Below are positions 3,433-21,082 of a stretch of DNA of 25,277 nt, piece by piece. A program made the translations under genes and the position numbers. Source of the DNA: a virus; the IMG/VR virus record IMGVR_UViG_3300008448_007197, positions 1-25,277 of that record; one strand, written 5' to 3'. The notes below the pieces were generated by a model that saw only the letters and a program-made list of their open reading frames with translations, did no database searches and was not told where the DNA came from. The number at the start of each line of letters is the position of its first letter. The stretch's first letter is position 1.

Positions 3433-4025
3433 ATTTTCCTAAATGCTGTTTGACCCATATCAGGTATTCTAATAATTTGTAACTTATGCCAATTACAAGC
3501 AATAAATGTTTCTACTGCTAGTCTAGGACTCATTTGTGCTGATGCTGTGCCATTCTTGTCTATATATTTCCAATCAGTAGCATCATCACATAATATGATG
3601 CCACCAGTAACTAAAATTTTAAAACATAATGTCAAATCTGTCAATACTGTACTTGCATGATGATCACCATCAATATAAATGAATTCAGGTCTTATCCCTT
3701 GATTAATCAGATCAATCAATCCATCTTCGCTGTGTTTTCTAATGAACTCTATATTTTTGTGCTTACACGCATTAATGTTGTACATAAAATTATTATGTAT
3801 AGCTACCGGATCTTCTTCAATGTCTACACTTCCAATGTGAGGATCTATTCCGTAAATTTTTAAATTAGGATTATACGGAGTATAAGAATCACTCATAGTA
3901 CAAGTAGTATGTCCTTCATATACACCTACTTCTACAATAGTATTAGGGACTCCGTTGCTACGTATAATATGGTCAATATTTTGCATAGCATTGGGAGTCA
4001 TATCCCAAGTTACTTTATATGTCAT
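3426..4025 (-). CDS. Class I SAM-dependent methyltransferase (Methyltransf_24/CmcI-like), 199 aa
   Basis: A Rossmann-fold S-adenosylmethionine-dependent methyltransferase. Motif I is VEVGVYEGHT (31-40), the glycine-rich SAM loop. IYGIDPH (57-63) carries the acidic residue that binds the ribose hydroxyls. FIYIDGDHHASTVLTDL (115-131) is the IDGxH signature typical of Methyltransf_24/cephalosporin hydroxylase-like enzymes. GGIILCDDA (141-149) is the strand-5 motif, with a possible metal- or substrate-binding Asp pair. In phage and surface-polysaccharide clusters such enzymes usually methylate sugars, although the substrate here is unknown. The ATG at 4025 lies 11 nt inside the preceding fusion gene and its end overlaps the GT25 start by 7 nt, so the cassette is tightly coupled. 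The ribosome site is weak, again suggesting coupling. It has the length of one domain and appears complete. Confidence 0.85.
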   Translation of the reverse strand: MTYKVTWDMTPNAMQNIDHIIRSNGVPNTIVEVGVYEGHTTCTMSDSYTPYNPNLKIYGIDPHIGSVDIEEDPVAIHNNFMYNINACKHKNIEFIRKHSEDGLIDLINQGIRPEFIYIDGDHHASTVLTDLTLCFKILVTGGIILCDDATDWKYIDKNGTASAQMSPRLAVETFIACNWHKLQIIRIPDMGQTAFRKIC

Positions 4026-5766
4026 TACTGGTCAGTTTTAAAGGTTGCTTTAGTTTTTCTTCGACCAATTGTTCATATTCACTATAGTCGTTGCGACCTG
4101 GTTTGTGAACTTGAATCAAATATTTTGTACTCAATGCAACATTATTAAAATGATTCAATGCATAATTAAGTTCTTCTTGTCCAATTTCACGTTTACGCAT
4201 TTTCTCTTCCCAGGGGGGAGTATATTCAAACTGCATATCAGCTATTTCAATATCAACATCATGGTCAAAAGCTAACGCACTATCACTTTGACCATTGCGT
4301 AGTTTTTCTAATAACATGCGTTTGTTAAACATATTGAACATACCCATAGTTATTAATCGCTTATGATCCGGATCATCTAGTGCGGTATCACAACGCCAGT
4401 GTGGACTTTGTACTTCCCAAATAGCACCATTATGACTAACACGATACATTTCTTTAATTGCTTTGATAAAATCACTACTAGTATCTCCTAGATGTTCTAA
4501 GATATCTTTAGCCACAATGTGGTCAAATTCATTGTCAGCAAAGGGCCACGGGAACTGATTAAAGTCAACGAGTTGATCTGGCTTAACGCTTGGGCTAATA
4601 TCAGCATTAACAAATCCTTCAATCTTTTTAAGACCACATCCCATATTCAATCTTTTAGTTACACGATCCTCATTAGGTTGTTCAATGTGTTGTAGATTAA
4701 ATTTTTCTTCTAGTTCTTTGTACAATAGTTGGAATGTATCATTCCACTTACTCTTAGTTGTTTGTCTAAACAGTCGTACACTATTGTAGTATGGACTACT
4801 GCGATTTTCTGGACTCTTATATGTCCATGTATGGTAAGGTAATACAGGAACTAGTACCCATGTTTCTTTGCCCATACCAGCCGCAATGTGTGCAATGCTT
4901 GTACAACTAGTGATAATGATATCCATGTTACTGATAGCTGCCATTGTATCTTCCCAACTAATCAAGAAGTGTTGCAAGTCAGTTACATTTGCGGGTAGTT
5001 GTACTAAGTTATGATCTTTTTGTAAACTATATATTTGTAGTTCAGGATATTTACTTAAGTTAGTGATGAAGTTTTCAGGGAAACGTCTAAACTGTTGATG
5101 CTCAAACTTGGGATTGCCCGCCCAACGAATACCAACTTTAATTTTTTCACTTTTAATTATTGTCTTCCATATTTCAACACTATCAGATAATGGTGTTAGA
5201 TATGGTTCGCTTGGGAAATTATCAAATGTATGCCCACTTACCCAACCTGCACTAAAACCTGGTACCCAGTAATCATGTCCTACGGTATTTGCTTGATTGC
5301 GTAGTATAACTTTATCTACACCTTCAATACGTTCAAATACACTTACTAATTCCGGAGCGGCTGCGATATAAACTTTATCTGCGCCTAATTTCTTAAAGCT
5401 AGTCGCAAATCGTGCATGAATAATTTCATCCCCATATCCACCCTCAAGCGATATGATAATTGACTTACCTTTAATATCATGTTGATCTGGATTAAAAATT
5501 GGTGCGTCTGTACGTAATGGTGGACTACCATATACACTTAAGAAACGACCGTTCTCTAAATATTGGCAACCCTTTTGATAATCACCATCTTGTATTAAGA
5601 ACCAGCCGCGATTGAAACAATGACGCATCCAAATATCTTGGGTGTTTTTACCATTTGGGTCAAGAATCTTTTCTGGACCAATTGCTTCTAGTTTATCACT
5701 TAATACTCTTGCTTCTTTATGTTTGCCCTCAAGTTGGAGCTTCAACATTTCATCTATTTCATGCAT
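4015..5766 (-). CDS. Fusion: TPR-like N-terminus, GT9-like glycosyltransferase, class I SAM methyltransferase, 583 aa
   Basis: Three regions are visible. Residues 1-85 are helical and contain a TPR-like unit (RGWFLIQDGDYQKGCQYLENGR within 53-74). Residues 100-345 resemble GT9/heptosyltransferase-type or TPR-linked GT-B proteins: GGYGDEIIHARF (109-120) as the N-terminal loop, KVGIRWAGNP (210-219) opening the second Rossmann domain, and SCTSIAHIAAGMG (287-299) in the donor-binding region. Residues 370-550 form a Methyltransf_11-like domain: LNMGCGLKKIEGFVNADI (373-390) as the SAM loop, then FDHIVAKDILEHL (414-426), a classic motif. The protein ends in a charged tail. The ATG at 5766 has a strong AAGAGGAT ribosome site 5 nt upstream, in the 47-nt gap after the RCC1 gene. 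It leads a four-gene modification cassette. The fusion suggests a sugar is transferred and then methylated, or that one acceptor is shared; substrates are unknown. Confidence 0.87.
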   Translation of the reverse strand: MHEIDEMLKLQLEGKHKEARVLSDKLEAIGPEKILDPNGKNTQDIWMRHCFNRGWFLIQDGDYQKGCQYLENGRFLSVYGSPPLRTDAPIFNPDQHDIKGKSIIISLEGGYGDEIIHARFATSFKKLGADKVYIAAAPELVSVFERIEGVDKVILRNQANTVGHDYWVPGFSAGWVSGHTFDNFPSEPYLTPLSDSVEIWKTIIKSEKIKVGIRWAGNPKFEHQQFRRFPENFITNLSKYPELQIYSLQKDHNLVQLPANVTDLQHFLISWEDTMAAISNMDIIITSCTSIAHIAAGMGKETWVLVPVLPYHTWTYKSPENRSSPYYNSVRLFRQTTKSKWNDTFQLLYKELEEKFNLQHIEQPNEDRVTKRLNMGCGLKKIEGFVNADISPSVKPDQLVDFNQFPWPFADNEFDHIVAKDILEHLGDTSSDFIKAIKEMYRVSHNGAIWEVQSPHWRCDTALDDPDHKRLITMGMFNMFNKRMLLEKLRNGQSDSALAFDHDVDIEIADMQFEYTPPWEEKMRKREIGQEELNYALNHFNNVALSTKYLIQVHKPGRNDYSEYEQLVEEKLKQPLKLTSNDI

Positions 5767-5813: not shown

Positions 5814-8800
5814 TTAAGGATTTTTTATATATCCACCTGTAGAACCGTCTTGTGATACAGAACTTATGCTAGTAGCTACCGCAGTAGGTGTTGACACTAT
5901 GTATGGTCCAGTACCTATCCCGACCTGATAACTAGTATTTAGACCCCAACCATATAATGTTTTAGAGGGGTCTACTGCAAAACTCACATCTTCACCAGCA
6001 GTTACAGTTATCCAGCTTTGGCTTGATATTAATGTAGGGGAATATGTTGAGTATATTCCCACTTGTATAGGGTTGCTACGCTGTATAGTAGTATTGTCAC
6101 CTAATTGACCTAAATCACCTGCACCAACAGTATACAATTGACCACTAGTATCTATCATTGCAGCACAACTATTGCCACTTTGTGCAGGATTACCATAATT
6201 AAAATTAGTACTTATTTGAGTTGGACTACTACGATTTATTAGATCATTTAATCCTAATTTACCATTAATATTATTTCCCCAAACCCATAATGTGCCATCT
6301 TCACGTTTGGCTTGTATACTTAGATTTGATGTATTTGGAGACCCTTCTATATCAGTCCATGCATATATACCACCTACTAAAACCGGCGACGTTTGATTTG
6401 TCGTAGCATTATTTCCTATATAAATACCTGTGCCCATCCCCCAAAGTGAACCATCTGCACGGATAATATGAGAGGTGGTATGTGATATGCTTACTTTTTT
6501 ATATGTAGACGTACCTAACTGTGTTGGACTACTTCTAGCTACTGCATCATTTAATCCAAGTTGGCCAACGTTATTGTATCCCCATACATATAAATAGCCA
6601 TTACTTGCAATTGCAGCACTAGTGAGTTGACCTGCTGATAGCGTAATATAACTCAATGATGTTACTATAGCCGGTGTTGATGTATTTGTTCTGTTATTTG
6701 ATCCTAATTGCCCATCACCATTTAATCCCCAGGTATGCAATTGCATATTACTATCAATAGCCATTGAATGACTTGATCCTGTTGTTATTTTTGTAAATAT
6801 TGCCCCTGAAGAAATTTGCACTGGGCTACTTCTATCAATTGTATCACTTAAACCAAGCTGTCCGTATAAATTACTACCCCAACTAAAAATATTACCGTTA
6901 GCTTTTAACGCCATAGTGAAAGACGTACCGGCAGTTACATTTATATAAGTATTGTCAGAACCTATTTGAGATATAAGACTTCTATTTATTGTGTCATTTG
7001 TTCCTAATTGTCCGTATGTGTTTTCTCCCCAAGACCATATTGTTCCGTCTGCTCGTAATCCTATAAAATAGTTAAGGCCGGCAGCAATTTTTTGCCAACT
7101 ATATCTTGCGTCAATTGGATTAGTAGCTGCATATCCTCCCCAACCATATAATTTATTATCATTTTTTAACGCTAATGCATGTCGATATCCTGCACTAATT
7201 TGAGTGTAGCTGGTAGAGCTATCAATTGTTGTAGGGCTAAAATTATAAGGGTATGCATCTGGGCCGACAACCAACGGACTACTTGTATTAACTGTCCCGG
7301 TACCTAACTTCCCGCCAGCATATGTTCCCCATACATATAATAGATTAATAGATGATAATGTAGTAATTACGCTTGCGCCAGCTTGTACTTGAGTATAACT
7401 ATTTGTATTGACTGAAGTAAGTTCAATAGGTATAAATGCATATGCCATAGTTGCAGTATTAATTTGCACTGGACTAGACAGTAGGTTTGATCCTGCATTT
7501 CCGTTATTCAAACCCCATGACCATATATTTGCTATTATGGGTTTGACTGCTAAACTGTTAATTTCTCCAGAACTTATCAACGTCCAACTTGAACTTCCTA
7601 TTTGCACCGGGCTTGATCTACTTATTGTAGTACCATCCCCTACTTGCCCTCGAGTATTAATTCCCCATGACCATAATATATTGGTTGAAGTTGTTGCAGA
7701 ATTAAGATTAGTACCAGCGGCTATTTTACTCCAAACATTTCCTGAACCGATTTGTATTGGACTTGATTCTAAAATATTATTACTATACCATATTGATCTA
7801 ATAAACTGTGGGCTAGATTTATTTGTAACAGTTCCATCACCCAAGCCACCGGAACCATTGTTTCCCCAAGTATATAATGCTGTATCTGATATCCCCAATG
7901 AACATTCACCGCTTGTTTGAAGAATATACCAACTTGTTATAGAACCGGCAATTTGTACTGGGCTTGATCTGTTTGCTATAGTTCCATCTCCTAACTGACC
8001 ACTATTATTTTGTCCCCATCCGTATCCTGTACCATTTGTTAATAACCCTAATGTATGACCTTGTCCTGCACTAACCTGAGACCAATTGCTAGTACCTATT
8101 TGTACTGGGCTAGATTTACTTACTGTAGTGCCATCTCCTAATTGACCATATACATTGGATCCCCAAGCAAATAATTTCCCATCAGACTGTATAGCTGTAC
8201 TAAAACTTTGTCCAACTGATACAAAAGTCCAACTACTTGTACCAACTTGTACTGGGCTACTACGGCTAATTATTGAATTATCTCCTAATTGACCTTGGGC
8301 ATTGATACCCCATGCCCATAATGTTGAATCTGTTCTAATGCCAATACTGAATCCATTACCTGCTGTAATTGTAGTCCAAGATTCAGATCCTATTTGTATA
8401 GGACTGCTCTTATTAATTTTGTATAATAATGAAGATCCTGTTTGTACCGGACTGCTTCTATTAAATGTATTATTTTGCCCCAATTGTCCAGCTGCATTTA
8501 AACCCCAAACATATAAATCATATGCAATTGCCAAGCTATGATTGCCATTGGCTGAAATCTGAGAGTATGAACTTGTACCTATTTGAGTTGGACTTGATCT
8601 ATTGATTGTTATTCCTACATTTAATCCTGTTTGCCCAGATGCATTACTTCCCCATGCGTATAAATTCCCAGTGCTAGTGATAGCCATTGAATGACTTGCG
8701 CCCGCGCTAACTATTATCCAAGAACCAGATTCTATTCCTGAACCTATCTGAATCGGACTTGACTTATCAATGACAGTATTATCTCCTAACTGACCAGTTG

Positions 8801-11800
8801 CATTAGTACCCCATGCATATAATTTTTTATCAGATGTAATTGCCAAACTATGACTATTCCCTGCAGAAACTTGTGACCAACTACTTGATCCTATTTGTAC
8901 TGGGCTTGATCTGTTTACTGTAGTTCCATCTCCTAACTGACCAGTTGCATTAGTACCCCATGTATATAGACTATTAGTAAGAGTAATAGCCATTGAATGG
9001 CTTATTCCAGCAGTTACTGAGTTCCAAGAATCAGAGCCAATTTGTATCGGGCTTGATCTACTTATAACGGTTCCATTTCCTAATTGACCTGAAGAATTTA
9101 ATCCCCAAGCCCATAGTGTTCCGTTATATGCTACAGCTAATACATGTTGAGTTATTGATACGTCATTCCATCCCCCAACACCTAGTTGAATAGGACTACT
9201 TCTATTGATTGTAGCTGCCTGTCCAAATCCTAATACGCCATTAGTATTAGTTCCCCAGCACCAAAGACTATCATCAGTACGAATACCAAAACTTGCATTA
9301 TTCCCTGCAGATATTTTTTTCCACATCATTGCACCGATCTGCACCGGGGAACTACGAGATATTGCAGTAGAATCACCTACTTGCCCTGAAGTATTAAATC
9401 CCCAACCAAATAATATATTGTCACTTCGTATAGCTAATGTATGACTAGTACCGGCACTTATAGATTTCCAGCTTAAATTAGCTAATTCACCTGAACTATT
9501 TAAGCCCCAACCCCAAAGTGTATTATCCGATCTTATTGCTAAACTATGACTTACGCCAGCCGCGATCTGAATCCAACTATAATCGCTACTGATTAAAACA
9601 GGAGTAGATTTATTTACTGCAGTACCATCACCTAAAATTCCTTGGGAATTGTATCCCCAAGCCCAAAGAGAATTGTCAGTTTTTATTGCTAATGTGTGAC
9701 CAAGTGTATTAGTAGTAGTTTTAGCTCTAGCTATCAATATATATGAACCTGGTATTTGCACTGGATTTGATCTATATAGTATAGTACCATCCCCTATTTG
9801 CCCAACATCATTGGCGCCCCATGCAAATAAGGAGTTATCCCCTGACCTAAGATAGGCTTGGCTATCAATTTGCGGAGTTACTGTCCCGGTTGTCAATGTT
9901 GTTATTCCAAGTTGTCTTAAACTATTATCTCCCCAAGCATACATATTTCCAGTAGTAGTTATTCCCAATGTATGACTAGTGCCGGCGCTTACCGCAGACC
10001 AACTACTACTACCTATTTGAACAGGACTACTTCTGTACTGAATCAACGTTGCAGAATTAATTTGTACTGGACTACTGCGTGTGACTGAAGTTCCGTTACT
10101 TATATTACGACCCCATGCATATAAATTTTTAAGAGTTCCAGTAGTGCCTGGTACATCACCAGCAGTAATACCTAATGTTGTGCTAAGAGAAATTGCTACT
10201 ATACTCCAAGATAGTGTTCCAATTTGAGTCGGCGAACTTCTAGCAATGGTTGTGCCTAACCCTAAAGTACCGCGCCCATTATCTGCACCCCAACCCAATA
10301 TAGTGCCGTCAAGTCTAGTTGCTAATGTACCAAAAAGTCCTGTTGTAACACTACTAAAAAAGTTGTTAGGAGCCACTTGTACAGGTGAGCTTATATAAGT
10401 TGGTACAATAGCATTCTGGCCTAAATCACCGTTTGAATTCGTTCCCCAACCCCATAAGGTATTATCAGATTTTATGGCAAATCCATTAAGTGCACCTGCA
10501 TCAGCATATCTCCATGTACCTAATAATTGGATTGGTGAAGTTATTGTGCTTGTACTGTTATTACCTAAAGTTCCGTAAGTATTATTTCCCCACGACCATA
10601 AACTATTATCTGACTTTATTCCAAAGGCAAAAGAGCCAAAACCTGATGGGGTAGTAGAATTAGAAATTAAAGTCCAAGAACCAGATACTTGAGTTGGGCT
10701 ACTTCTAGTTATTTGATCACCTAAACCTAATTGGCCATTAGTATTATCACCCCATGTATATAGTTGTCCACTAGTATTGATAGCAGCCGCATTTAATGAC
10801 CCTACTGATAATTTACTCCAATTAGTATCTACCCCCATTTGTACTGGGCTAGACCTAGCAGTGCCTATACCATATGCATCCCATAATACACCGGTTTGAT
10901 TGAATCCCCATCCCCATAGTGTCCCATTAGTCTGAATACCTATAGCGTAACTTTGACCAACACCCACAGAAGACCAACTGCCAGGAACTTGCACAGGGCT
11001 ACTTCTAGCAGTAGTGGCTGCTTCTCCGGTACCAAATACGCCATTTCTATTAGTACCCCAAACCCACAATGTACTATCGCTTCTTAATGCAAAGCTAACA
11101 TCTGCCCCGCCCGAAATGCCTCCCTTATCTTGAAAAACAGTAGACCATTGATAAGGGGCTATTGAAGTTCCCAGTTGACCCAATGTGTCATCCCCCCAAC
11201 CAAATAACTTACCAGCAGTATCAATCACAAAAGATTGTGATCCATTTGCACTAATTTGAGTGTAGGAGCCGGTGCCTGATGTTATTAGTTGAGGTGTTGC
11301 GTTTAATCTTCCCCAAGTATATACTAAATTGGTATTAGTCAATGCTAATGTTTCATCAATACCAGCACTAATTGCAGTATAACTCAATACTGGTGCCGCT
11401 GTAATTTGAATTGGACTACTTCTACTTACAGAATTGCCGACAATGCCTATATATCCATTATTCAATCCCCATGCCCATATAGTATAATCACTTCTAATTG
11501 CAACAGTTCTACTACCGACAGCACTTACCTTTAGCCAAAATCCACCTTCATCCCATGCATTTATTTGTACCGGGCTACTACGCAATATTGTAGTACCGTC
11601 ACCTAACTGGCCTGCACTATTTAGACCCCATAAAAATAATCTACCATCACTGCGAATTGCGGCTGAATGACTTTGGCCTGCACTGAGTTGTGTCCAACTG
11701 TATGTAAGAGGTGTTGTATTAAAATCGCTGGTTAATAATAGTGTTTTACTACCCCACCCCCACAAAGTATAATCATCTTGTATCCCAAAAGAATTTACAG

Positions 11801-13250
11801 CACTTGCAATACTATAACCAGCTAATGTTCCTACACTAGTTCTCCAATTGGCACTATGTATTTGTACGGGACTACTGCGATATATTTGATCATTGGTGCC
11901 CAATATTGAATTATCGTTGCGACCCCAAGCATATAGTTTATTATTTAATTTAACAGCAAATACACTGACTGTTGTAGCTTGTACTATAGACCATGAACTA
12001 ACTCCCACTTGTATAGGACTACTTCTATTAAGTGTTGAATTATTACCAAGCTGTCCTGAAGAATTAAGGCCCCAGGCCCACAATGTGTTATTCGTTCGAA
12101 TACCATAACTTGATACATCACCTATTGATACCGATGTCCAACTGCCGCCGCCCGTAATTTGCACCGGGCTTGATTTGCTGATTGTGGTATTATCTCCTAG
12201 TTGACCGGAAGTCCCTAACCCCCATAAATACACGGTGCTATCAGATTTAATCGCTGCTTTATGTGATTTTCCTGCAGACACAGTAATCCAAGATCCATCT
12301 ACCTGTACAGGACTACTACGAGTTACAGTAGTCCCGTTTCCAATTTGACCTACGTTATTATTACCCCAACACCATAATGTACCGTCTGTGCGTATAGCGG
12401 CTGGGGCCGCGCCTACCCCGCCCCCGTTAACTACAACCATAGACCAGGTATCAGTGCTAATTTGTGTAGGGCTACTGCGATTTATTACATCATTTAATCC
12501 AAGTTGTCCAGTAGTGTTTATACCCCACCCAAACAGTATACCGTCTGTTCTAATGGCTAAAGTATATTCATCGTTTCCTGCAATTTGACTCCATGAGTTT
12601 GTTATTGCTGTTGAATATCCCAATTGCCCATATGTATTGTCCCCAAAAGTTACTATTTTATAATCAGTTGTTAACCCTACAGTATAATTATTGCCAGCAT
12701 CAACTTGTAGATAAGAACTTGTGCCAATTTGTACTGGACTACTTAAATTATAATATAGATATTGACCAGTTTGACCTAAAGTGCCGGCTCCCCAAGCCCA
12801 CAATGTATTGTCGCTTTTTAATGCAACAACGTGGCTTTGTCCAGCACCTATACTATTCCAACTAATTGTGTTTACTTGTACAGGACTACTACGATATGCA
12901 TTTGACGGAATGTTGACTCCAAGTTCTCCGTATTGGCTATATCCCCAACCAAATAATAAGTTGTCACTACGTAATGCCAATGAATAATTTAATCCAGTAT
13001 GAACTCCTATCCAAGTACTAGAACCTATTTGAATTGGACTAGACTTATTTATTATATCATTATTACCTAGTTGTCCGTAGTTATTTGTCCCCCACGCATA
13101 AAGTTTTCCATCAACACCTATAGCAAGTGCATGGCTTATACCTATACTTACTTGTTTAAAATTACTAGCTAGTAAATATGGTGAGGGAATATAACTATTG
13201 CTAAATGCAGAAAGTTGTGTTGGATTTGACCGATTAGTAGTTACACTCAT
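5814..13250 (-). CDS. Giant RCC1-repeat (beta-propeller) protein, downstream half, 2478 aa
   Basis: Almost the entire protein is a tandem array of RCC1 units, about 45-55 residues each, with the consensus SSPVQIG-x-SW-x-x-VSAG-x-SHSLAI-x-SD-x-x-LYAWG-x-N-x-x-GQLGD. I count about 48 'WG' strands by eye. RCC1 repeats each form one blade of a seven-bladed propeller and usually bind proteins (RCC1, HERC proteins, BLIP-II). No signal peptide, enzyme motif or membrane segment is visible. Loops at repeat ends are Asn/Ser/Thr-rich and variable. The location among tail genes suggests a virion adhesin (inference). The ATG at 13250 overlaps the preceding RCC1 gene by ATGA and has GGAG 7 nt upstream. It begins within a repeat (TTNRSNPTQ) that continues the end of the upstream gene. 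The C-terminus also stops partway through a repeat (STPTAVATSISSVS). Several units are truncated, for example near 10021-10075, 8400-8460 and 7745-7800. Confidence 0.93.
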   Translation of the reverse strand: MSVTTNRSNPTQLSAFSNSYIPSPYLLASNFKQVSIGISHALAIGVDGKLYAWGTNNYGQLGNNDIINKSSPIQIGSSTWIGVHTGLNYSLALRSDNLLFGWGYSQYGELGVNIPSNAYRSSPVQVNTISWNSIGAGQSHVVALKSDNTLWAWGAGTLGQTGQYLYYNLSSPVQIGTSSYLQVDAGNNYTVGLTTDYKIVTFGDNTYGQLGYSTAITNSWSQIAGNDEYTLAIRTDGILFGWGINTTGQLGLNDVINRSSPTQISTDTWSMVVVNGGGVGAAPAAIRTDGTLWCWGNNNVGQIGNGTTVTRSSPVQVDGSWITVSAGKSHKAAIKSDSTVYLWGLGTSGQLGDNTTISKSSPVQITGGGSWTSVSIGDVSSYGIRTNNTLWAWGLNSSGQLGNNSTLNRSSPIQVGVSSWSIVQATTVSVFAVKLNNKLYAWGRNDNSILGTNDQIYRSSPVQIHSANWRTSVGTLAGYSIASAVNSFGIQDDYTLWGWGSKTLLLTSDFNTTPLTYSWTQLSAGQSHSAAIRSDGRLFLWGLNSAGQLGDGTTILRSSPVQINAWDEGGFWLKVSAVGSRTVAIRSDYTIWAWGLNNGYIGIVGNSVSRSSPIQITAAPVLSYTAISAGIDETLALTNTNLVYTWGRLNATPQLITSGTGSYTQISANGSQSFVIDTAGKLFGWGDDTLGQLGTSIAPYQWSTVFQDKGGISGGADVSFALRSDSTLWVWGTNRNGVFGTGEAATTARSSPVQVPGSWSSVGVGQSYAIGIQTNGTLWGWGFNQTGVLWDAYGIGTARSSPVQMGVDTNWSKLSVGSLNAAAINTSGQLYTWGDNTNGQLGLGDQITRSSPTQVSGSWTLISNSTTPSGFGSFAFGIKSDNSLWSWGNNTYGTLGNNSTSTITSPIQLLGTWRYADAGALNGFAIKSDNTLWGWGTNSNGDLGQNAIVPTYISSPVQVAPNNFFSSVTTGLFGTLATRLDGTILGWGADNGRGTLGLGTTIARSSPTQIGTLSWSIVAISLSTTLGITAGDVPGTTGTLKNLYAWGRNISNGTSVTRSSPVQINSATLIQYRSSPVQIGSSSWSAVSAGTSHTLGITTTGNMYAWGDNSLRQLGITTLTTGTVTPQIDSQAYLRSGDNSLFAWGANDVGQIGDGTILYRSNPVQIPGSYILIARAKTTTNTLGHTLAIKTDNSLWAWGYNSQGILGDGTAVNKSTPVLISSDYSWIQIAAGVSHSLAIRSDNTLWGWGLNSSGELANLSWKSISAGTSHTLAIRSDNILFGWGFNTSGQVGDSTAISRSSPVQIGAMMWKKISAGNNASFGIRTDDSLWCWGTNTNGVLGFGQAATINRSSPIQLGVGGWNDVSITQHVLAVAYNGTLWAWGLNSSGQLGNGTVISRSSPIQIGSDSWNSVTAGISHSMAITLTNSLYTWGTNATGQLGDGTTVNRSSPVQIGSSSWSQVSAGNSHSLAITSDKKLYAWGTNATGQLGDNTVIDKSSPIQIGSGIESGSWIIVSAGASHSMAITSTGNLYAWGSNASGQTGLNVGITINRSSPTQIGTSSYSQISANGNHSLAIAYDLYVWGLNAAGQLGQNNTFNRSSPVQTGSSLLYKINKSSPIQIGSESWTTITAGNGFSIGIRTDSTLWAWGINAQGQLGDNSIISRSSPVQVGTSSWTFVSVGQSFSTAIQSDGKLFAWGSNVYGQLGDGTTVSKSSPVQIGTSNWSQVSAGQGHTLGLLTNGTGYGWGQNNSGQLGDGTIANRSSPVQIAGSITSWYILQTSGECSLGISDTALYTWGNNGSGGLGDGTVTNKSSPQFIRSIWYSNNILESSPIQIGSGNVWSKIAAGTNLNSATTSTNILWSWGINTRGQVGDGTTISRSSPVQIGSSSWTLISSGEINSLAVKPIIANIWSWGLNNGNAGSNLLSSPVQINTATMAYAFIPIELTSVNTNSYTQVQAGASVITTLSSINLLYVWGTYAGGKLGTGTVNTSSPLVVGPDAYPYNFSPTTIDSSTSYTQISAGYRHALALKNDNKLYGWGGYAATNPIDARYSWQKIAAGLNYFIGLRADGTIWSWGENTYGQLGTNDTINRSLISQIGSDNTYINVTAGTSFTMALKANGNIFSWGSNLYGQLGLSDTIDRSSPVQISSGAIFTKITTGSSHSMAIDSNMQLHTWGLNGDGQLGSNNRTNTSTPAIVTSLSYITLSAGQLTSAAIASNGYLYVWGYNNVGQLGLNDAVARSSPTQLGTSTYKKVSISHTTSHIIRADGSLWGMGTGIYIGNNATTNQTSPVLVGGIYAWTDIEGSPNTSNLSIQAKREDGTLWVWGNNINGKLGLNDLINRSSPTQISTNFNYGNPAQSGNSCAAMIDTSGQLYTVGAGDLGQLGDNTTIQRSNPIQVGIYSTYSPTLISSQSWITVTAGEDVSFAVDPSKTLYGWGLNTSYQVGIGTGPYIVSTPTAVATSISSVSQDGSTGGYIKNP
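8861..8962. repeat. 102-bp segment nearly identical between the two RCC1 genes, copy in downstream gene
   Basis: It matches 16951-17052 at 98 of 102 positions by direct comparison. The encoded residues GTTVNRSSPVQIGSSSWSQV are identical in both proteins. The copies lie in different genes about 8.1 kb apart, which suggests sequence exchange across the whole array. Confidence 0.9.
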
Positions 13251-16200
13251 GTCAGATCTCCGATCTGTCCAATATTATTTTGTCCGAATAGATACGCTTG
13301 ATTATTTTCATTAATTATTGAACTAAAACTATATCCTGAACTTATATTACTAATACGAGAATTAATTTGTACAGGACTACTTCTATTTAGTATATCGTTA
13401 TTTCCAAGTTGACCATAATTATTTTGTCCCCATGCGAATAATAAATTATTATAATTTGTACCTAAACTGTGTGTGCTTCCAGCACTAATTTTAGCCCAAT
13501 CATTAGTTCCTATTTGAACTGGGCTACTTTCATATGGATATACAGATGATAACAATACTATAGGGCTACTAGTAGAAACTGTTACTGCCGCAGAGACCTG
13601 TACAGGACTACTTCTATTAAGGACTGCGCCAATACCAAATTGACCAGTTGCACCATAACCAGACCCCAACACACCAAAATCGGATGTTGCTTTAACAATT
13701 AATCTATGGCTAAAGCCTGAAGTAACTATAGAAAAACTTGAACCACTTGAGGTAATTACCGGACTACTTCTATTGATAGTTGTAGTATCTCCTAATTGAC
13801 CAAAATTATTTTGTCCCCAGGCAAATCCAGCATAGTCTGTTGTTATACCTGAAGTAAAATCATCACCAGAAGAAATAAACATCCAACTGCTTGATCCCAC
13901 TTGAAAAGGACTACTACGAGATACGAGGGTACCGTTTCCTAACTGTCCTAGTGTATTTAATCCCCAAGTAAATAGTAATCCAGAAGAGTTAATAGCCGCA
14001 CTATGAGTTTGACCTGCTGAAATTTGTGACCAACTATCTGTTCCTATTTGAGTCGGACTGTAAACCAAGGTATCATAAAATGAATTGCCGATTTGAGTTG
14101 GACTACTTCTAGCTAGAGCAACATCACCTAGTCCAAGAATTGCTCCGGCTCCACCCCAAACCCATAAAATATTATCTGTTGAAATTGCCAAAGTAGCTCT
14201 ACCTACTCCTATTGGATCTCCGAGTGTAGCAACCATTATATATGAATTAGTTCCTACTTGGGTAGGACTGCTGCGACTTATTGTGTCATTTTGTCCTAAC
14301 TGGCCATTATTATTTTCTCCCCAACTCCAAAGCGTATTATCATTCCGAATAGCTATAGTTGATGTACCATTAACAGATACCGTGTTCCAAGATCCGGGTA
14401 TTTGTGTTGGGCTAGTTCTAGCAGTTCTATCATTCAATCCTAAATGCCCATACCGATTATCACCCCATACCCATAAAGTACCATCAGTTGCAATAATAGC
14501 GGCTGAACTCTCATGGACCGCTGCCATAGACCAACTACGTGAACTTGTTGTGGGCACTAAAGCTGGCGCAGTAACGTTAGGAGAGTTACTAAAACCTATA
14601 AAAATACTATTTCCACCAGAGGCGCCGTAGCCCCATGCCCATAGACTACCATCACTTTTAATGGCTAATGTTGCTCGGTAAGCAGAACTAACATAAACCC
14701 AAGGATTTAACGGATCAGGAGTTCCAATTTGTGTTGGGCTAGACCTAGCTCCGGTAGCTATCGAACTTAGTCCCAAAGAAGCGTTCGTATTAGCACCCCA
14801 ACCATATATTTCTCCTGAGGATCTTAACGCAAAAAAGTTAGTACCGCTTCCGGATGCTACTTGAGTCCAACTGTTTCTTGTTACATCTCCGACTTGTCCA
14901 GAAGTATTAGCGCCCCAGCCATACAATTTATTATTACTGGTTACTGCTATTGCATGTGAACCGCCGGCACTTATCGCTGACCAACTACTAGAACTTATTT
15001 GTACTGGGCTTGATTTATTAAAAGTTGTACCATCTCCTAATTGATTTAAAAAATTTAAGCCCCATGCCCATAATGTATAGTCTGATTTGATTGCTAATGT
15101 AAAACTAAGGCCTGCACTTACTGATATCCAGCTACCAGGAATTTGTACTGGGCTACTTCTTCTAATAGTAGTATTATCACCCAATTGCCCAGCATTATTT
15201 TCTCCCCATACCCATAAAGAATTATCTATAGCCTTAATTGCTGCCGTATATGAAGATCCTGAATCTACTACTATCCAACTGTCTGCATTTATAAATGTTG
15301 GCCATGATCTGTTAACGGTGGTCCCTATTCCAAGTTGTCCAAAATTGTTGAGACCCCAGCCAATTAATTGACCATCATTTCTTATACCTATATTATGAAA
15401 ATCTCCTGCACTCAAGGAAGTCCAACTATAATATTGTGGGGAATCATATAATGTGCCATAAATTCCATAACCCCAAGTATCTATCGTACCATGTGGGTCA
15501 ATAGATAATGCTTGATGATTAAACATTGATAACTGATATAGATGACCTTTGTTTTTTAGTGAAGGTATTTGAATAGGGCTACTACGTTGCACAGTGTCTC
15601 CTATGCCTAATTCAGAATTTTTATTAAATCCCCAGCCCCATAAATCATTATTCTCTCTGACAGCTAATATATTACCATCACCAATAACAACGTTGTTGTA
15701 TGTCCCATCAACTGCTGCTGGACTAGATCGTGTAGTAGTAGCATTATTACCTAATAATCCTGTACCCCACGTCCAAAGCGTATTATCTACTTTTATTGCA
15801 GCGGCTTGCGAAATGCCAGCTGTAACCATAACCCAAGAACTAGTACCTAATTGCACTGGACTTGATCTTCCGATAGTTGTTCCGCTATTGCCTAAATTAC
15901 CATAAGAGTTATTTCCCCAAGCAAATAATCCCCCATCGGACCGTATTGCTGCACTAAAACTTTGTCCAGCTGATACAAAAGTCCAACTACTTATTCCTAA
16001 TCTAGCTGGATATGAATAAAAAGATGAGTTAGTAGTATTATATACTTGTACAGGATTTGATCTAGCTAACGATGTTCCGGCTCCCGGTAAAACCCAGTAA
16101 AGACTATTCTGACCAACAAATACTGTATGCCCATATTTATCAATTGCTTGCAATTGAAGATTTCTATTTGCGTATCCTAATTTTAAACTTCCAGTTTGTA

Positions 16201-19200
16201 CTTGCACTGGACTTGATCTACTAATAGTAGTTCCATTTCCAAAATTACCAAAAGAATTATTCCCCCAACCGTATATTACATTATCTGATGTTTGCGCCAT
16301 TACATATTGAGAGCCTGCATTTACTACTGTGTAAATATTAGTACCTATTTGTATTGGGCTCGATTTATCTATTGTAGTGTTATCTCCTAATCGGCCTGAA
16401 AGATTACTTCCCCAACCATACAAATAAGTATTACTACTTATTGCATAAGTTGTACTGGTACCGGCTTCAACTGTATTCCAATTACCAGAAACTTGTATTG
16501 GGCTACTTCTTCTAATAGTAGTATTATCACCCAATTGCCCAGCATTATTTTCTCCCCATACGTATAATGTTGAACCAGTAATTGCCGCAGTATAATTACG
16601 TCCTGTTCTAATAGAAGTCCATGATAAATTTCCTATCTGAGTGGGACTCGACTTGTTAGTTGTAGTCCCATCACCCAATTGTCCATTTGAATTATTACCC
16701 CATGTGTATAATTGATTATCAGTTTTTATTCCGACAGAGTGACTATCACCTGCACTCACATATTTCCATATATCTGTACCGATTTGAACTGGGCTTGACC
16801 TAGATATTAGTATTGCCGTTAAAGAGAATCCAATTTGAGTTGGTGCTGATCTATATACTAAACTAAAATCTCCTATGCTACCGTATTGATTAGTACCCCA
16901 TGATTGTAATAGATTATTGGAATCGGTAATTATTCCTAAAGAATTGACTCCTGCAGAAACTTGTGACCAACTACTTGACCCTATTTGTACCGGACTTGAT
17001 CTGTTTACTGTAGTTCCATCTCCTAACTGACCAGTTGTATTAGTACCCCATGCCCATAATAAGTAATTTGTATCAAGTGCTAAAGTTTGACCAAATCCTG
17101 CTTTAACTGATATCCAACTGCCAGGTACTTGTACAGGTTGACTTCTATTAATAGTATCATCTAGGCCCAATTGACCTGATGTATTTGTCCCCCATACATA
17201 CAGAGTTCCGTTATTTTTTAAAGCAATTGTGTGCCCTGTTCCTGAGCAACTATTTACATAAGACCAATCGGTATCACTACCTATCTGAACCGGACTACTT
17301 CTATTTATGGTATCATTTAATCCTAGTTGACCCGTATTATTAATACCCCAAGACCAAAGTTTTCCGTCAGTTGTTATGGCTGTAACACCATCAGCAGAGG
17401 CAGTTGCAGATGCGTATGAGGTAGGCACTGATGTAGATCCAAAACTTGATGGGTAAAATTCATTAGTCATTTGCATAAGGAACGAAGATGGATTACCATT
17501 GACTGTAAATGTTACTGCATTTGAACTATAATCAGTTGTCAGTGAACTAGATTGAAATGCTAGTATTACTGTATTTGAAATATTTGTCAGTGGTGACGTA
17601 GGTACTGTGAAGCTAGACCCACTATAAACTATAGATTTTGTAAATCTCAAATTACTTACATATGCATTACAGCTTTCCATTAGCGTTATATTAGTTAACG
17701 TAGATATTATTGGTGCAGCTCCTGCATATGGCGCTGTAGATATTAAAACTCCATCTAGATAAGCATAATAAGTATTCAAAGCACTATTTCTTACAAATGC
17801 AACATGATGCCAAGTATCGGATGGAGTACCTGCACTAACAGTAAAACCGTAGGCTGTAATAGACTCCAAATTATTCTGAGCATAACAACTAAATACCCAG
17901 TAGGGTGTATAACCAGTATTGCCTAGTGTTACCCACCAATCTGCATTTCCAATAACTTTATGTTTTGTGCCAGCACCGCCACCGGAAGGTATGTTAAATG
18001 CCCAAAATTCAATAGTAAAATCGTCGGATGCTCCTATACTATAATTAGCATTGGTAGCAGAAAGGGTAACCCCGTTAATATAACCTTGATATACTGACCA
18101 ATAGGTGCTTACCCCTGAAATTTCTGATGTAGGTATTCTAACACTAGTAGCAGTTTCATAACCTGTTACCCCGGACAGACCCAATGCCGCTTGTCCAGTG
18201 CCCCATCTATATAAATTAAAATCAGAACTAACTGCTATACCAAAACTGTCACCTGAACTCACTGAAACAAAACTTTTAGGCCATATAATCATCATAGGGG
18301 AGAGTTGGTCAGAAAGATTTCCTGTACCATTTGCATAACTAACTCCTCTCCCCCACACATATAATTTATTATTGGTTGCAATACCACCTGTGCGTAAACT
18401 TCCAGCATTTATAAATATCCAAGACAATGATCCTATTTGTGTTGGACTACTTCGAAGGATGGTAGTGTTATCTCCTAGATTACCATAAAAATTATATCCC
18501 CATGCATATAATTTGCCATCCTGTCGTATTGCTGTACTATAATTATTCCCAGTACTAACTGCGATCCAAGAAAAAGCTGTATCGGATCTAATTTGTCCTG
18601 AAGAATTTAATCCCCAGCCCCACAAATATCCATCACTATCAATAGCTAAAACATGGGCCCCGCCCGCACTAACCTGTGACCAGCTGCTATTACCAATTTT
18701 TATCGGAGGATTTGATCCAGAACCTGTAGAATTATTTCCTAGTACTCCGTTACTATTAAATCCCCATGTGAACAATAAATTGTCTGGACTTATGGCTGCT
18801 ACGTAGCCGCTATCACCTATACTCATTGACTTCCAAGATAGGGCTATAGTAGAGGTTTGACCTCCTACTTGACCATAAGTATTTGTTCCCCACCCATATA
18901 AACCATAATCATACGATGAAATAGCTAGATTATGTGTTCCAGAAGAGACTGCAATCCAACTGCCGCCTCCAGTGATCTGTACAGGGCTACTATAACTAAT
19001 CAAATTTAGAGTTCCTAATTCACTATTAGAATTATTACCCCATACATATAACAAGCCATCTACTGTTATTCCTGTACTATGAATATTACCTGCTGATATT
19101 GAACTCCAAAAACTATTTCCTATCTGCACCGGACTTGATCTATTGATAGTTGTATTATCTCCTAATTGACCAGAACTGTTTAGTCCTAATGCAAATAACT

Positions 19201-20080
19201 TACCGTCATATCTTAAAGCTAAAATATGATCATCTCCGGTTACTACTTGTGACCAATACAGACTTGAATAGGTTGAATATTTACCTAGTTGACCATATTG
19301 GTTATCACCCCAAGTAAATAATTTATTAGATGTATTGATAGCTAAACTATGGGATCCCCCGGCTGAAATAACACTCCAAGAATTTGTACCTATTTGTACT
19401 GGGCTTGATCTACTTATTGTAGTGCTATCTCCTAATTGACTAATATCATTTCTACCCCAAGTATATAATTTACTAGTCAAGTCGAGTGCCATTGAATGAA
19501 ACTCTCCAGCACTTATTGAAATAAAACTTCCTGAAATTTGAACCGGGCTACTTCTGAGAATAGTATCAGACAATCCTAATTGGCCATCATAATTAGAACC
19601 CCATGCATATAGCCTATAAGAAGAATCAATAGCAAGACTATAATTTTCACCAGCACTTATTTGTGTAAAACTAGTAGTTTGCGAAATTAAAGTAGGTAAA
19701 CTTCTATCTACTACCCCGATATCACCAAGTTGTCCATAATCATTACTACCCCAAGCATATAAAGAATAATTTTTATCTATTCCTAAAGTATGTGTTTTTC
19801 CTGCAAATACAGCTGTCCAACTACTAGAACTTATTTGTACTGGGCTTGATCTACTTATAACGGTTCCATCTCCTAATTGTCCTTGAAAATTGTTGCCCCA
19901 TGCCCACAGAGTAGAATCACTTCTTATAGCTACTGAGTGGCCGTCGCCGCTGGTAATAGAGACCCAACTGTAATAGTAGGCAGCTTTGCTATTTCCAACC
20001 AAACCAAAACTGTTATCGCCCCATGTATATAAAGAGGGCACATGACTATATAAACCTAGTAATAATGTATTGATATCCAC
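13247..20080 (-). CDS. Giant RCC1-repeat protein with inserted LamG-like domain, upstream half, 2277 aa
   Basis: The protein has about 14 RCC1 'WG' strands (residues 15-655), a LamG/concanavalin A-like domain (about 657-867), then about 27 more RCC1 strands to the C-terminus. It ends mid-repeat at GQNNIGQIGDLT. The repeat consensus matches the downstream gene, including near-identical DNA segments. The LamG part shows FTIEFWAFN, TWHHVAFVRNS, YYAYLDGV and YVSNLRFTKS, typical of Laminin_G_3 domains in phage fibres, which can bind glycans. The start is a GTG at 20080, two codons after an in-frame TAA that ends the previous gene; a second GTG lies 13 codons further, and no ATG-encoded methionine appears before about residue 214. 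The ribosome site is poor (a GGAA about 12 nt upstream), so coupling to the tail-chaperone gene is likely. The protein starts directly at an LYTWG strand, as in circularly permuted propellers closed by both termini. A virion adhesin role is inferred from neighbours. Confidence 0.92.
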   Translation of the reverse strand: MDINTLLLGLYSHVPSLYTWGDNSFGLVGNSKAAYYYSWVSITSGDGHSVAIRSDSTLWAWGNNFQGQLGDGTVISRSSPVQISSSSWTAVFAGKTHTLGIDKNYSLYAWGSNDYGQLGDIGVVDRSLPTLISQTTSFTQISAGENYSLAIDSSYRLYAWGSNYDGQLGLSDTILRSSPVQISGSFISISAGEFHSMALDLTSKLYTWGRNDISQLGDSTTISRSSPVQIGTNSWSVISAGGSHSLAINTSNKLFTWGDNQYGQLGKYSTYSSLYWSQVVTGDDHILALRYDGKLFALGLNSSGQLGDNTTINRSSPVQIGNSFWSSISAGNIHSTGITVDGLLYVWGNNSNSELGTLNLISYSSPVQITGGGSWIAVSSGTHNLAISSYDYGLYGWGTNTYGQVGGQTSTIALSWKSMSIGDSGYVAAISPDNLLFTWGFNSNGVLGNNSTGSGSNPPIKIGNSSWSQVSAGGAHVLAIDSDGYLWGWGLNSSGQIRSDTAFSWIAVSTGNNYSTAIRQDGKLYAWGYNFYGNLGDNTTILRSSPTQIGSLSWIFINAGSLRTGGIATNNKLYVWGRGVSYANGTGNLSDQLSPMMIIWPKSFVSVSSGDSFGIAVSSDFNLYRWGTGQAALGLSGVTGYETATSVRIPTSEISGVSTYWSVYQGYINGVTLSATNANYSIGASDDFTIEFWAFNIPSGGGAGTKHKVIGNADWWVTLGNTGYTPYWVFSCYAQNNLESITAYGFTVSAGTPSDTWHHVAFVRNSALNTYYAYLDGVLISTAPYAGAAPIISTLTNITLMESCNAYVSNLRFTKSIVYSGSSFTVPTSPLTNISNTVILAFQSSSLTTDYSSNAVTFTVNGNPSSFLMQMTNEFYPSSFGSTSVPTSYASATASADGVTAITTDGKLWSWGINNTGQLGLNDTINRSSPVQIGSDTDWSYVNSCSGTGHTIALKNNGTLYVWGTNTSGQLGLDDTINRSQPVQVPGSWISVKAGFGQTLALDTNYLLWAWGTNTTGQLGDGTTVNRSSPVQIGSSSWSQVSAGVNSLGIITDSNNLLQSWGTNQYGSIGDFSLVYRSAPTQIGFSLTAILISRSSPVQIGTDIWKYVSAGDSHSVGIKTDNQLYTWGNNSNGQLGDGTTTNKSSPTQIGNLSWTSIRTGRNYTAAITGSTLYVWGENNAGQLGDNTTIRRSSPIQVSGNWNTVEAGTSTTYAISSNTYLYGWGSNLSGRLGDNTTIDKSSPIQIGTNIYTVVNAGSQYVMAQTSDNVIYGWGNNSFGNFGNGTTISRSSPVQVQTGSLKLGYANRNLQLQAIDKYGHTVFVGQNSLYWVLPGAGTSLARSNPVQVYNTTNSSFYSYPARLGISSWTFVSAGQSFSAAIRSDGGLFAWGNNSYGNLGNSGTTIGRSSPVQLGTSSWVMVTAGISQAAAIKVDNTLWTWGTGLLGNNATTTRSSPAAVDGTYNNVVIGDGNILAVRENNDLWGWGFNKNSELGIGDTVQRSSPIQIPSLKNKGHLYQLSMFNHQALSIDPHGTIDTWGYGIYGTLYDSPQYYSWTSLSAGDFHNIGIRNDGQLIGWGLNNFGQLGIGTTVNRSWPTFINADSWIVVDSGSSYTAAIKAIDNSLWVWGENNAGQLGDNTTIRRSSPVQIPGSWISVSAGLSFTLAIKSDYTLWAWGLNFLNQLGDGTTFNKSSPVQISSSSWSAISAGGSHAIAVTSNNKLYGWGANTSGQVGDVTRNSWTQVASGSGTNFFALRSSGEIYGWGANTNASLGLSSIATGARSSPTQIGTPDPLNPWVYVSSAYRATLAIKSDGSLWAWGYGASGGNSIFIGFSNSPNVTAPALVPTTSSRSWSMAAVHESSAAIIATDGTLWVWGDNRYGHLGLNDRTARTSPTQIPGSWNTVSVNGTSTIAIRNDNTLWSWGENNNGQLGQNDTISRSSPTQVGTNSYIMVATLGDPIGVGRATLAISTDNILWVWGGAGAILGLGDVALARSSPTQIGNSFYDTLVYSPTQIGTDSWSQISAGQTHSAAINSSGLLFTWGLNTLGQLGNGTLVSRSSPFQVGSSSWMFISSGDDFTSGITTDYAGFAWGQNNFGQLGDTTTINRSSPVITSSGSSFSIVTSGFSHRLIVKATSDFGVLGSGYGATGQFGIGAVLNRSSPVQVSAAVTVSTSSPIVLLSSVYPYESSPVQIGTNDWAKISAGSTHSLGTNYNNLLFAWGQNNYGQLGNNDILNRSSPVQINSRISNISSGYSFSSIINENNQAYLFGQNNIGQIGDLT
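13253..13267 (-). promoter_or_regulatory. Small hairpin carrying the ribosome binding site of the downstream RCC1 gene
   Basis: On the coding strand the sequence CAGATC-GGA-GATCTG is a perfect 6-bp inverted repeat with a 3-nt loop. The GGAG ribosome site occupies the loop and the first base of the 3' stem, 7 nt before the ATG at 13250 and just before the ATGA overlap. It would be melted by ribosomes finishing the upstream gene, which would couple reinitiation to upstream translation. This role is inferred; the hairpin itself is seen directly. Confidence 0.5.
15149..15211. repeat. 63-bp exact direct repeat, copy 1 (partner 16499-16561)
   Basis: The 63 bases are identical to 16499-16561, exactly 1350 bp (450 codons) away in the same gene. 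They encode the WGENNAGQLGDNTTIRRSSP region of two RCC1 units. Most other units differ at many synonymous sites, so this pair points to recent duplication or gene conversion. Confidence 0.9.
16499..16561. repeat. 63-bp exact direct repeat, copy 2 (partner 15149-15211)
   Basis: This is the second copy of the exact repeat inside the upstream RCC1 gene. Identity stops at both ends at simple substitutions, and flanking units differ substantially. The pair is a potential site for deletion or unequal recombination. Confidence 0.9.
16951..17052. repeat. 102-bp segment nearly identical between the two RCC1 genes, copy in upstream gene
   Basis: This is the partner of 8861-8962, with four substitutions (at 16979, 16991, 16994 and 17038). 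The neighbouring units are much less alike, so the similarity is local. Confidence 0.9.
17480..18110 (-). other. LamG/concanavalin A-like domain inserted within the RCC1 array
   Basis: These codons encode about 210 residues with no RCC1 consensus. Key landmarks are YWSVYQGYING, DDFTIEFWAFN, TWHHVAFVRNS, YYAYLDGV and YVSNLRFTKSIVYSGSSFTVP. They follow the order of Laminin_G_3 jelly-roll domains, as does the partial gene at the right edge of the window. RCC1 strands resume immediately after it (TTDGKLWSWGINNTGQLG). LamG domains often bind carbohydrates; the ligand here is unknown. Confidence 0.82.
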
Positions 20081-20083
20081 GAC

Positions 20084-20656
20084 TTAAATTCCGGAATCAG
20101 TAGAAGGTTCAGTTGAAGTTGTTGACGTTGGTAAGTTAGGCCATACTATCAAATTGAAGCTATTTATATCATAATCATCTTTGTAGATATTTGGTAAATC
20201 ACGTAATTCTTGACGATATAATTTGTATAGAGTAGTTAATTCTATACCATTTTTTTCTACTATATCATTCAATTGAGTGTAATCAGTGTCTTTGAGTAAT
20301 TGATTACGATATTCTCTAAGTTGCGACATTACTATATTATGTATATTAATTTTTTCTAAAAATTGTTGTTCTTCAGATGTTGTCGTTTCTGTAGTTTCAA
20401 TTGAAGTAATAGTTTCAACCGTCTTAGTCTCAATAATAATATTCCCTTCAATAGTGAAAATGCTATCAGATAATTTTTGACTAGTTGGATCATAGCTTGG
20501 TACAGGAGCCTGTACTATGCATCTCCAGCCTAAAGATTCTATATATGTTTTATCTTCTGATAAAGCATAAAAATTGCTTATATTTCTCCAATTTAATGGA
20601 AAATTATCATAAACTCCAGTGATTTTATTATTTTCAATATGTGCGTATTTTGCCAT
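20084..20656 (-). CDS. Phage tail assembly chaperone-like protein (Phage_tail_APC type), 190 aa
   Basis: The C-terminal half carries the pattern of the phage tail assembly chaperone-like family (Pfam Phage_tail_APC): an Arg-rich helix SQLREYRNQLLKDTDYTQLN followed by a helix ending YKLYRQELRDLPN. The N-terminus (MAKYAHIENNKITGVYDNFP, then NWRNISNF) is an all-beta segment often found at the start of such phage proteins. A charged Thr/Glu-rich linker separates the two. I chose the ATG at 20656: it starts the recognisable MAKYAH sequence and overlaps the upstream stop as TAATG. An in-frame start 11 codons earlier would extend into the upstream gene and adds nothing conserved. The C-terminus is Thr/Ser-rich (TSTTSTEPSTDSGI). 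It precedes the giant RCC1 genes and may help fold or attach the adhesins, though this is inference. Its TAA is in the same frame as the next gene's GTG. Confidence 0.78.
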   Translation of the reverse strand: MAKYAHIENNKITGVYDNFPLNWRNISNFYALSEDKTYIESLGWRCIVQAPVPSYDPTSQKLSDSIFTIEGNIIIETKTVETITSIETTETTTSEEQQFLEKINIHNIVMSQLREYRNQLLKDTDYTQLNDIVEKNGIELTTLYKLYRQELRDLPNIYKDDYDINSFNLIVWPNLPTSTTSTEPSTDSGI

Positions 20657-21048
20657 TAGTAATTCTGCCCTGAAATGAATGCTTGCCAAGTTGTACCACC
20701 GTCAATCGTCATAAACAAGAATAAATCTTTTTTTCCATTAGTTGATGTTATTGTGGGTGCTATGGAGCTTGGCCATTGAAAACTTGCAGGCCATGTAACA
20801 CTTCTTGCGGTACCGTCAGCAGTAAAAATAATCACAAAACTACTAGTACGTCCTGTAGATTGTATATTACTCAGAGTAATTGAAGTAATATTATCAGTTA
20901 ATGAAACGCTGAATATTGCAGCGGCATTTAAATCTAATGTAATACTATTGCTTACTATTGATATATCTGCTTCCGTGGAACTAGAATTATTTGGAAGAAA
21001 TACTTTATTATCGTCAATGACGGTTGTGTTTGATACTTTTATCGCCAT
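20656..21048 (-). CDS. Standalone beta-rich phage tail/structural module, 130 aa
   Basis: This small protein is all-beta in appearance. It contains the pattern SVTWPASFQWPSSIAPTITS at about residues 88-107, then FLFMTIDGGTTWQAFISGQ near the C-terminus. The WP-x4-WP plus DGGTTW-x-x-F combination recurs at the C-termini of large phage tail and fibre proteins, where it is thought to be a structural or capping module; here it is a separate gene. The ATG at 21048 has a strong AAAGGAG ribosome site and a GATAAATA late-promoter-like box about 27 nt upstream, so it probably begins a late transcription unit. It follows the S74 tail fibre by 29 nt and overlaps the tail-chaperone gene by 1 nt. A virion role is inferred from this family resemblance and position. 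Confidence 0.75.
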   Translation of the reverse strand: MAIKVSNTTVIDDNKVFLPNNSSSTEADISIVSNSITLDLNAAAIFSVSLTDNITSITLSNIQSTGRTSSFVIIFTADGTARSVTWPASFQWPSSIAPTITSTNGKKDLFLFMTIDGGTTWQAFISGQNY

Positions 21049-21074: not shown

Positions 21075-21082
21075 TATTTATC
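21075..21082 (-). promoter_or_regulatory. Candidate T4-type late promoter GATAAATA
   Basis: GATAAATA on the coding strand matches the NATAAATA late-promoter box of T4-like cyanophages (T4: TATAAATA), which is recognised by a gp55-like sigma factor. It spans the stop codon of the tail-fibre gene and lies about 27 nt before the next ATG. No gp55 gene is in view, and AT-rich DNA can give chance matches. Confidence 0.5.

Follow-up and report, generated by a model that had tools for sequence, protein, structure and literature searches.

A giant RCC1 repeat array in a phage tail-fibre locus: a probable virion adhesin with a glycosyltransferase/methyltransferase neighbour

Described RCC1 proteins of phages and the locus analysed

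Phage proteins with RCC1 repeats have been annotated before, both as PHROGs families (4219, 7220 and 16766, filed under DNA metabolism) and in individual genomes. The cultured Synechococcus phage BUCT-ZZ01 (ON615601) carries a fibre, a chaperone, an RCC1 array and a glycosyltransferase (GT)/methyltransferase in the same order as the locus studied here, with an enzyme about 52% identical to its counterpart. Its array, however, has only 14 repeats (two propellers), the products are labelled 'BNR repeat domain protein' (UTS52180) and 'hypothetical protein' (UTS52179), and the literature searched describes no role for the RCC1 protein. Synechococcus phage S-SRM01 shows a looser version of the module, in which RCC1 proteins gp335, gp337 and gp344 follow just after baseplate and long-tail-fibre genes and a related GT (annotated as 'tetratricopeptide repeat protein') occurs together with sugar genes; these are separate single propellers of 6-7 repeats, with no giant array. 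In the cultured Pseudomonas phages PollyC and Ppr_SeaP2, a tail-fibre protein of 865-867 aa joins RCC1 propellers to a T7-fibre-like N-terminal anchor (E 6e-05; at 23 bits, below the Pfam cutoff of 25.2), and the region shown contains no GT partner. The GAP32/phAPEC6 group also has RCC1-like proteins encoded by several tandem genes, but each gene encodes a single propeller, no annotated tail gene lies nearby, and a role in DNA organisation has been proposed (PMC7247149). A comparable run of RCC1-like genes, about one propeller each and again with no annotated tail gene nearby, is seen in Asteriusvirus phage UB (L018:12261-26469).

The literature searched describes neither RCC1 arrays as phage adhesins nor such proteins of giant size nor a link between them and a GT. 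A preliminary description of this locus had stated that no characterised phage adhesin is known to be built this way, which agrees with that literature but needs the qualification that phage RCC1 proteins themselves were already annotated (PHROGs, GAP32/phAPEC6, S-SRM01). The giant arrays, the gene module and the enzyme link appear to be new.

The window, meaning the whole stretch of DNA analysed, is a 25,277-base IMG/VR virus record, and its minus strand carries every large gene (Table 1). These run from the end of a LamG tail protein through an S74 fibre, a 130-aa fibre-like protein and a chaperone to arrays A and B, and continue with a 583-aa enzyme (hereafter the partner), a methyltransferase, a GT25 glycosyltransferase, two unknown proteins and a truncated NrdA. 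The placement of the array between an S74 fibre/chaperone group and a glycosyltransferase cassette is thus borne out: the S74 fibre, the chaperone and the LamG protein precede the arrays, and the GT25 and methyltransferase genes follow them. Two features are additions to the preliminary description: the LamG domain within array A, and the identity of the 583-aa neighbour as a GT-B and methyltransferase enzyme that is linked to arrays across many phages. The LamG-rich baseplate-type protein has a fuller relative of 1838 aa in contig L010. The chaperone likely starts at the ATG at 20656, and the TTG at 20689 in the ORF list is probably spurious.

Table 1. Features of the window, with coordinates in the 25,277-base record
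Feature	Coordinates	Strand	Evidence
LamG-rich baseplate-type tail protein, C-terminal piece (gene cut by contig end)	24576..25277	-	PF13385 7.1e-22; baseplate/virion PHROGs
Tail fibre, 1155 aa, C-terminal S74 chaperone domain	21078..24545	-	PF13884 5.4e-07; phrog_8215/33119 tail
Fibre-tip-like protein, 130 aa	20656..21048	-	phrog_9017 tail fiber 8.4e-18
Tail-fibre assembly chaperone	20084..20656	-	PF16778 2.1e-09; phrog_4912 tail fiber assembly
RCC1 array A, 2277 aa, GTG start, ~41 repeats	13247..20080	-	Pfam RCC1, PF25390, core-motif scan
LamG (concanavalin A-like) stretch of array A, residues 640-899	17384..18163	-	PF13385 6.6e-08
ATGA overlap of the A and B ORFs	13247..13250	-	inside one repeat
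RCC1 array B, 2478 aa, ~48 repeats	5814..13250	-	Pfam RCC1, PF25390, core-motif scan
Partner enzyme, 583 aa: helical (TPR-like) N-terminus, GT-B, C-terminal SAM methyltransferase	4015..5766	-	PF08241; AF2; Foldseek
Methyltransferase (Methyltransf_24)	3426..4025	-	PF13578 1e-14
GT25 glycosyltransferase	2725..3432	-	PF01755 4.5e-15

Repeats, fold and evolution of the two arrays

Profile searches show that A and B together contain 71 Pfam RCC1 matches (best 4.8e-16, most above the curated cutoff), while 14 control genomes contain none, and the RCC1-like domain PF25390 gives whole-protein scores of 1148 bits for A and 1466 bits for B. A core-motif scan, with a background of about 0.5 match per 1000 aa in shuffled sequence, finds 40 and 47 repeats; two further degenerate repeats in long spacings bring the count to about 89, the number first proposed for the two adjoining genes. 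An AlphaFold model of one slice of array B (residues 1609-2478; mean pLDDT 70, pTM 0.47, two well-predicted stretches) gives RCC1-type propeller matches; structure prediction of slices was a check proposed in the preliminary description. In Foldseek, one propeller of this slice aligns with UVR8 at a target-normalised TM of 0.79-0.80, and HERC1/HERC2 align at 2.4-2.5 Å across about 318 columns. UVR8, HERC2/HERC1 and RCC1 share fold and repeat with the array, but those are lone propeller domains of cellular proteins whose functions are unrelated. The arrays are members of the RCC1 fold family, a placement supported by sequence and in part by structure.

The number of blades per propeller can be judged from relatives. 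Repeat counts are divisible by seven (7, 14, 21, 28, 35) in 13 of 19 gap-free arrays, against 2.7 expected, and the associated p of 1.2e-7 is optimistic since some of the 19 arrays are related. By the same count, the related contig L009 has 91 repeats, or 13 x 7, provided that both degenerate repeats are included. The earlier proposal of roughly a dozen seven-bladed propellers agrees with these counts and with the RCC1/UVR8-like model, but the roughly 89 repeats of the window are not a multiple of seven. Propeller boundaries in A and B were sought at short or doubled linkers, where the spacing is irregular, and the slice model, at a pTM of 0.47, is of too low confidence to place them.

The two ORFs meet inside a repeat. 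Array A ends in GQIGDLT and array B begins with MSVTTNRSNPTQL, and combined they form one normal repeat. L009 has the identical split with an ATGA junction, and the arrays of G001, G002 and G003 are divided at the same repeat phase. Inspection by eye found no slippery heptamer at the A/B junction, so frameshifting is disfavoured and translational coupling is favoured. The two products would be made by coupled translation, and their chains may join by completing the shared blade. Neither A nor B was found to contain a classical fibre anchor or trimerisation domain. Array A begins at window position 20080 with the short hydrophobic sequence MDINTLLLGLY, and a leader of this kind, such as MLLEKWLLTVQ, is usual on the first array ORFs of relatives; it is a possible docking peptide.

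Repetitive DNA raises the concern that assembly joined repeats into a long chimeric array. Exact repeats do exist in the window array, but the longest is 63 bp, which itself makes misassembly less likely. The concern is met by independent contigs. L009, from another metagenome, is colinear with both ORFs at 94% protein identity, the sole indel being a 102-residue insertion (two repeats) in its array A. G001 and G016, from different metagenomes, carry the same 30-kb array with 99.8-99.98% identity bar one indel, and the arrays of G005 and G025, also from different metagenomes, are identical. The arrays are also under purifying selection, and an assembly artefact is extremely improbable.

Comparison of the window with L009 gives dN/dS values of 0.29 and 0.32 for the arrays and 0.05-0.17 for neighbouring genes. 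Because synonymous changes per site exceed non-synonymous ones, the arrays are evidently translated and constrained, and their constraint is weaker than that of the neighbouring genes. Divergence is patchy: residues 1650-1800 of B are 56-74% identical to L009, and most of the remainder exceeds 90%, a pattern expected from swapped blades. Non-synonymous changes peak at repeat positions 15, 17-18 and 26-27, which lie between the invariant core Gly, Trp and Pro residues. The LamG insert is among the most divergent stretches between the two contigs (A residues 700-800, with one 50-residue block at 67%).

A recurrent module and the adhesin interpretation

Genome mining shows that the arrangement is common. 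A scan of IMG/VR with the partner gene retained 80 loci, and an RCC1 array lies directly upstream of 71 partner ORFs in the loci with readable upstream sequence. In L039, L040, L041 and L043 only the chaperone separates array and partner, and in L086 a second GT does so (TPR-glycosyltransferase-like, L086:8690-9952). A selection based solely on the RCC1 signature gave at least 598 stretches, including 47 contigs new relative to the partner-selected set; among the matches listed, 36 of these 47 have a partner homologue and 30 have the chaperone. The chaperone adjoins the array in most complete loci, and the 5' neighbour of the array matched chaperone family phrog_4912 in all 11 members tested; in L039, L041 and L043 it lies 3' of the array and is still adjacent. 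Fibre, tail-fibre chaperone, RCC1 array and GT-B glycosyltransferase, often with a methyltransferase, constitute a conserved module. The search of viral metagenomes suggested at the outset found arrays recurring widely, beside the fibre chaperone and the GT partner.

Four partner loci (L063, L064, L074 and L098) do not have the array-upstream layout. L074 has a rearranged module, with arrays on the opposite strand and 3' of the partner (L074:13592-21715). In L064 and L063 a different repeat (TSSDGxTWTxxTSGT..., DUF6242-like) lies upstream of the partner (L064:2099-9826, L063:3-2783); the L064 protein has 2575 aa, carries this repeat in its later part and matches DUF6242. This protein type may itself be a propeller array that occupies the adhesin slot. 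The slot of L098 (L098:7929-9971) is occupied by a protein that is Gly-rich, has a poly-glycine region at its C-terminus and carries no RCC1; it is related to phrog_4474 and, weakly, to phrog_863 'tail fiber assembly'.

Array length varies from 8 repeats (L095, 418 aa) to at least 195. In G001, where the array is longest, 30 kb are taken up by three ORFs in a row (at least 1674, 3105 and 5159 aa), and the profile matches at least 195 times. G019 has a single ORF in which RCC1 matches about 90 times and 13 segments are inserted, LamG where tested, and the single ORF of G004 has 14 inserts; LamG-type inserts number up to 14 per array. A 5577-aa RCC1 ORF in G014 (L115/L056) has three glycine-rich inserts of about 270 aa that look like poly-glycine adhesin tips, a label taken from their appearance, as the insert matched no family. 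The C-terminal domains of G028 likewise gave no family match.

Of 29 family contigs, 12 carry T4 gp23 capsid genes and none carries psbA. A host link through psbA was rejected on this count; the cultured relatives infect Synechococcus. A genome scan for the partner returned only two MAG contigs, of which L129 is evidently a binned phage, and so indicated no host.

Taken as genomic evidence, this context argues that A and B are probably a virion adhesin, of tail-fibre type, of a T4-like phage. The arrays belong to a fibre operon that also encodes an assembly chaperone, and a carbohydrate-binding-type domain, LamG, lies within the array A polypeptide. The multivalent adhesin proposed in the preliminary description gains from the presence of the chaperone across the family, the LamG inserts, the T7-fibre-like RCC1 fusions and the presence of other adhesin-like proteins in the same slot. 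The array is no one-off.

An alternative is that the RCC1 repeats serve to organise or compact the DNA of the phage, either within the head or inside the cell. The PHROGs category points this way, as does the phAPEC6 paper, which noted eleven RCC1 proteins and suggested a role in ordering DNA (PMC7247149). Against it, the window arrays are neutral to acidic (K+R about 4%, D+E about 4-5%) and do not have the basic, DNA- or nucleosome-binding character of an RCC1 guanine-exchange/chromatin factor, so that a DNA-ordering role is less likely for arrays of this type. The tail-fibre operon with its chaperone, the LamG domains inside arrays and the joining of RCC1 to a T7-fibre-like N-terminus in other phages argue in the same direction. 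A DNA-organising function is very unlikely, and the DNA metabolism category fits such proteins badly.

A different possibility is that the array decorates the virion without receptor specificity, providing reversible sticking to surfaces, particles or biofilm matrix, or shielding, with no role in host range. The great variation in array length among relatives, the repetitive architecture and the LamG domains would suit this function. The tail-fibre operon with its chaperone and the replacement of the array by other adhesin-like proteins, which resembles host recognition, speak against it, and mere decoration is unlikely.

If A and B are an adhesin, they would be two chains of one very long tail fibre. 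About every seven RCC1 repeats would close as a beta-propeller, giving some 12-13 propellers in series with a lectin-like LamG domain inserted. The chaperone encoded just upstream may help the array assemble onto the tail, and exposed blade loops may make weak, multivalent contacts with molecules of the host surface. The indels and exchanges show that arrays gain, lose or swap blades and inserts, and this would change specificity.

The partner enzyme and possible glycosylation of the array

The 32 partner homologues share the invariant motifs GIRW[AS]GNPKFEHQQ and LEGG.GDE, and 25 of them match PF08241, while the Pfam GT9 match to the partner is weak. An AF2 model (pLDDT 90) shows a helical N-terminus, and Foldseek matches include GT9 3tov (1.6e-07), WaaF 1psw (3.3e-05), TibC 4rap and SAM methyltransferases. 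On this model, the partner is predicted to have a GT-B fold related to GT9. In many phages (L131-L200) separate genes encode a GT of about 350 aa, placed right after the array, and a methyltransferase of about 200 aa; in the clade of the window the two are fused in one gene, which hints at a functional link.

TibC offers a comparison, as it heptosylates the adhesin TibA (PMC4358343) and forms with it a pair of GT-B/GT9-type enzyme and adhesin, like partner and array. Enzymatic modification of a repetitive adhesin encoded next door is an attractive analogy. Assignment of the partner to the BAHT family was considered and rejected. That family is defined by a four-cysteine iron finger and an N-terminal beta-barrel (PMC4358343), and the partner has neither and thus lies outside the TibC family; C288 is the only invariant Cys among the 32 homologues. 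Unlike TibC, it also carries a methyltransferase.

The composition of the arrays provides a further clue. Most partner-linked arrays contain 22-29% Ser+Thr and recurrent SSP motifs, whereas eight unlinked phage RCC1 proteins contain 13-21% and no SSP; the S-SRM01 propellers, with 20-23% Ser+Thr but no SSP, are exceptions on the motif. This enrichment is correlative, and Ser-rich loops could be merely structural. A precedent is the glycosylation of mycobacteriophage virions, as cited in PMC12619734 (Freeman 2023). By analogy, we tentatively suggest, at slightly short of an even chance, that the partner glycosylates the array. The GT-B/methyltransferase would add sugars, perhaps methylated, to the Ser/Thr-rich blades before virion assembly.

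The GT9 heptosyltransferase fold is typical of LPS enzymes, and the partner may instead act on the host envelope, perhaps as a block to superinfection, and be a mere neighbour of the array. Other sugar genes lie downstream of it, and in L064 and L098 it is retained next to non-RCC1 proteins, so its substrate may be the host surface or something else. Against this, the partner immediately follows the array in most loci, even those chosen independently of it, and an adhesin heptosyltransferase, TibC, is among its closest folds. Envelope modification is a serious possibility, though short of probable, and is compatible with the adhesin core.

Taken further, it is conceivable, if still doubtful as a whole, that glycosylated propeller-chain adhesins of T4-like phages form a widespread class of up to about 10,000 residues or 200 blades. 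These would be built of exchangeable units, change length through blade duplication and deletion, and be modified by a dedicated GT/methyltransferase while still inside the infected cell.

If the adhesin interpretation is true, many phage proteins annotated as 'regulator of chromosome condensation' would move from DNA metabolism to host recognition, and the RCC1 propeller chain would join the known architectures of phage adhesins. Such chains include very large predicted phage proteins, with single ORFs of 7937 aa (G019) and at least 8626 aa (G004). The pairing of array and GT/methyltransferase suggests adhesin glycosylation encoded by the phage itself, and the arrays would represent a natural, recombining repertoire of beta-propeller binders.
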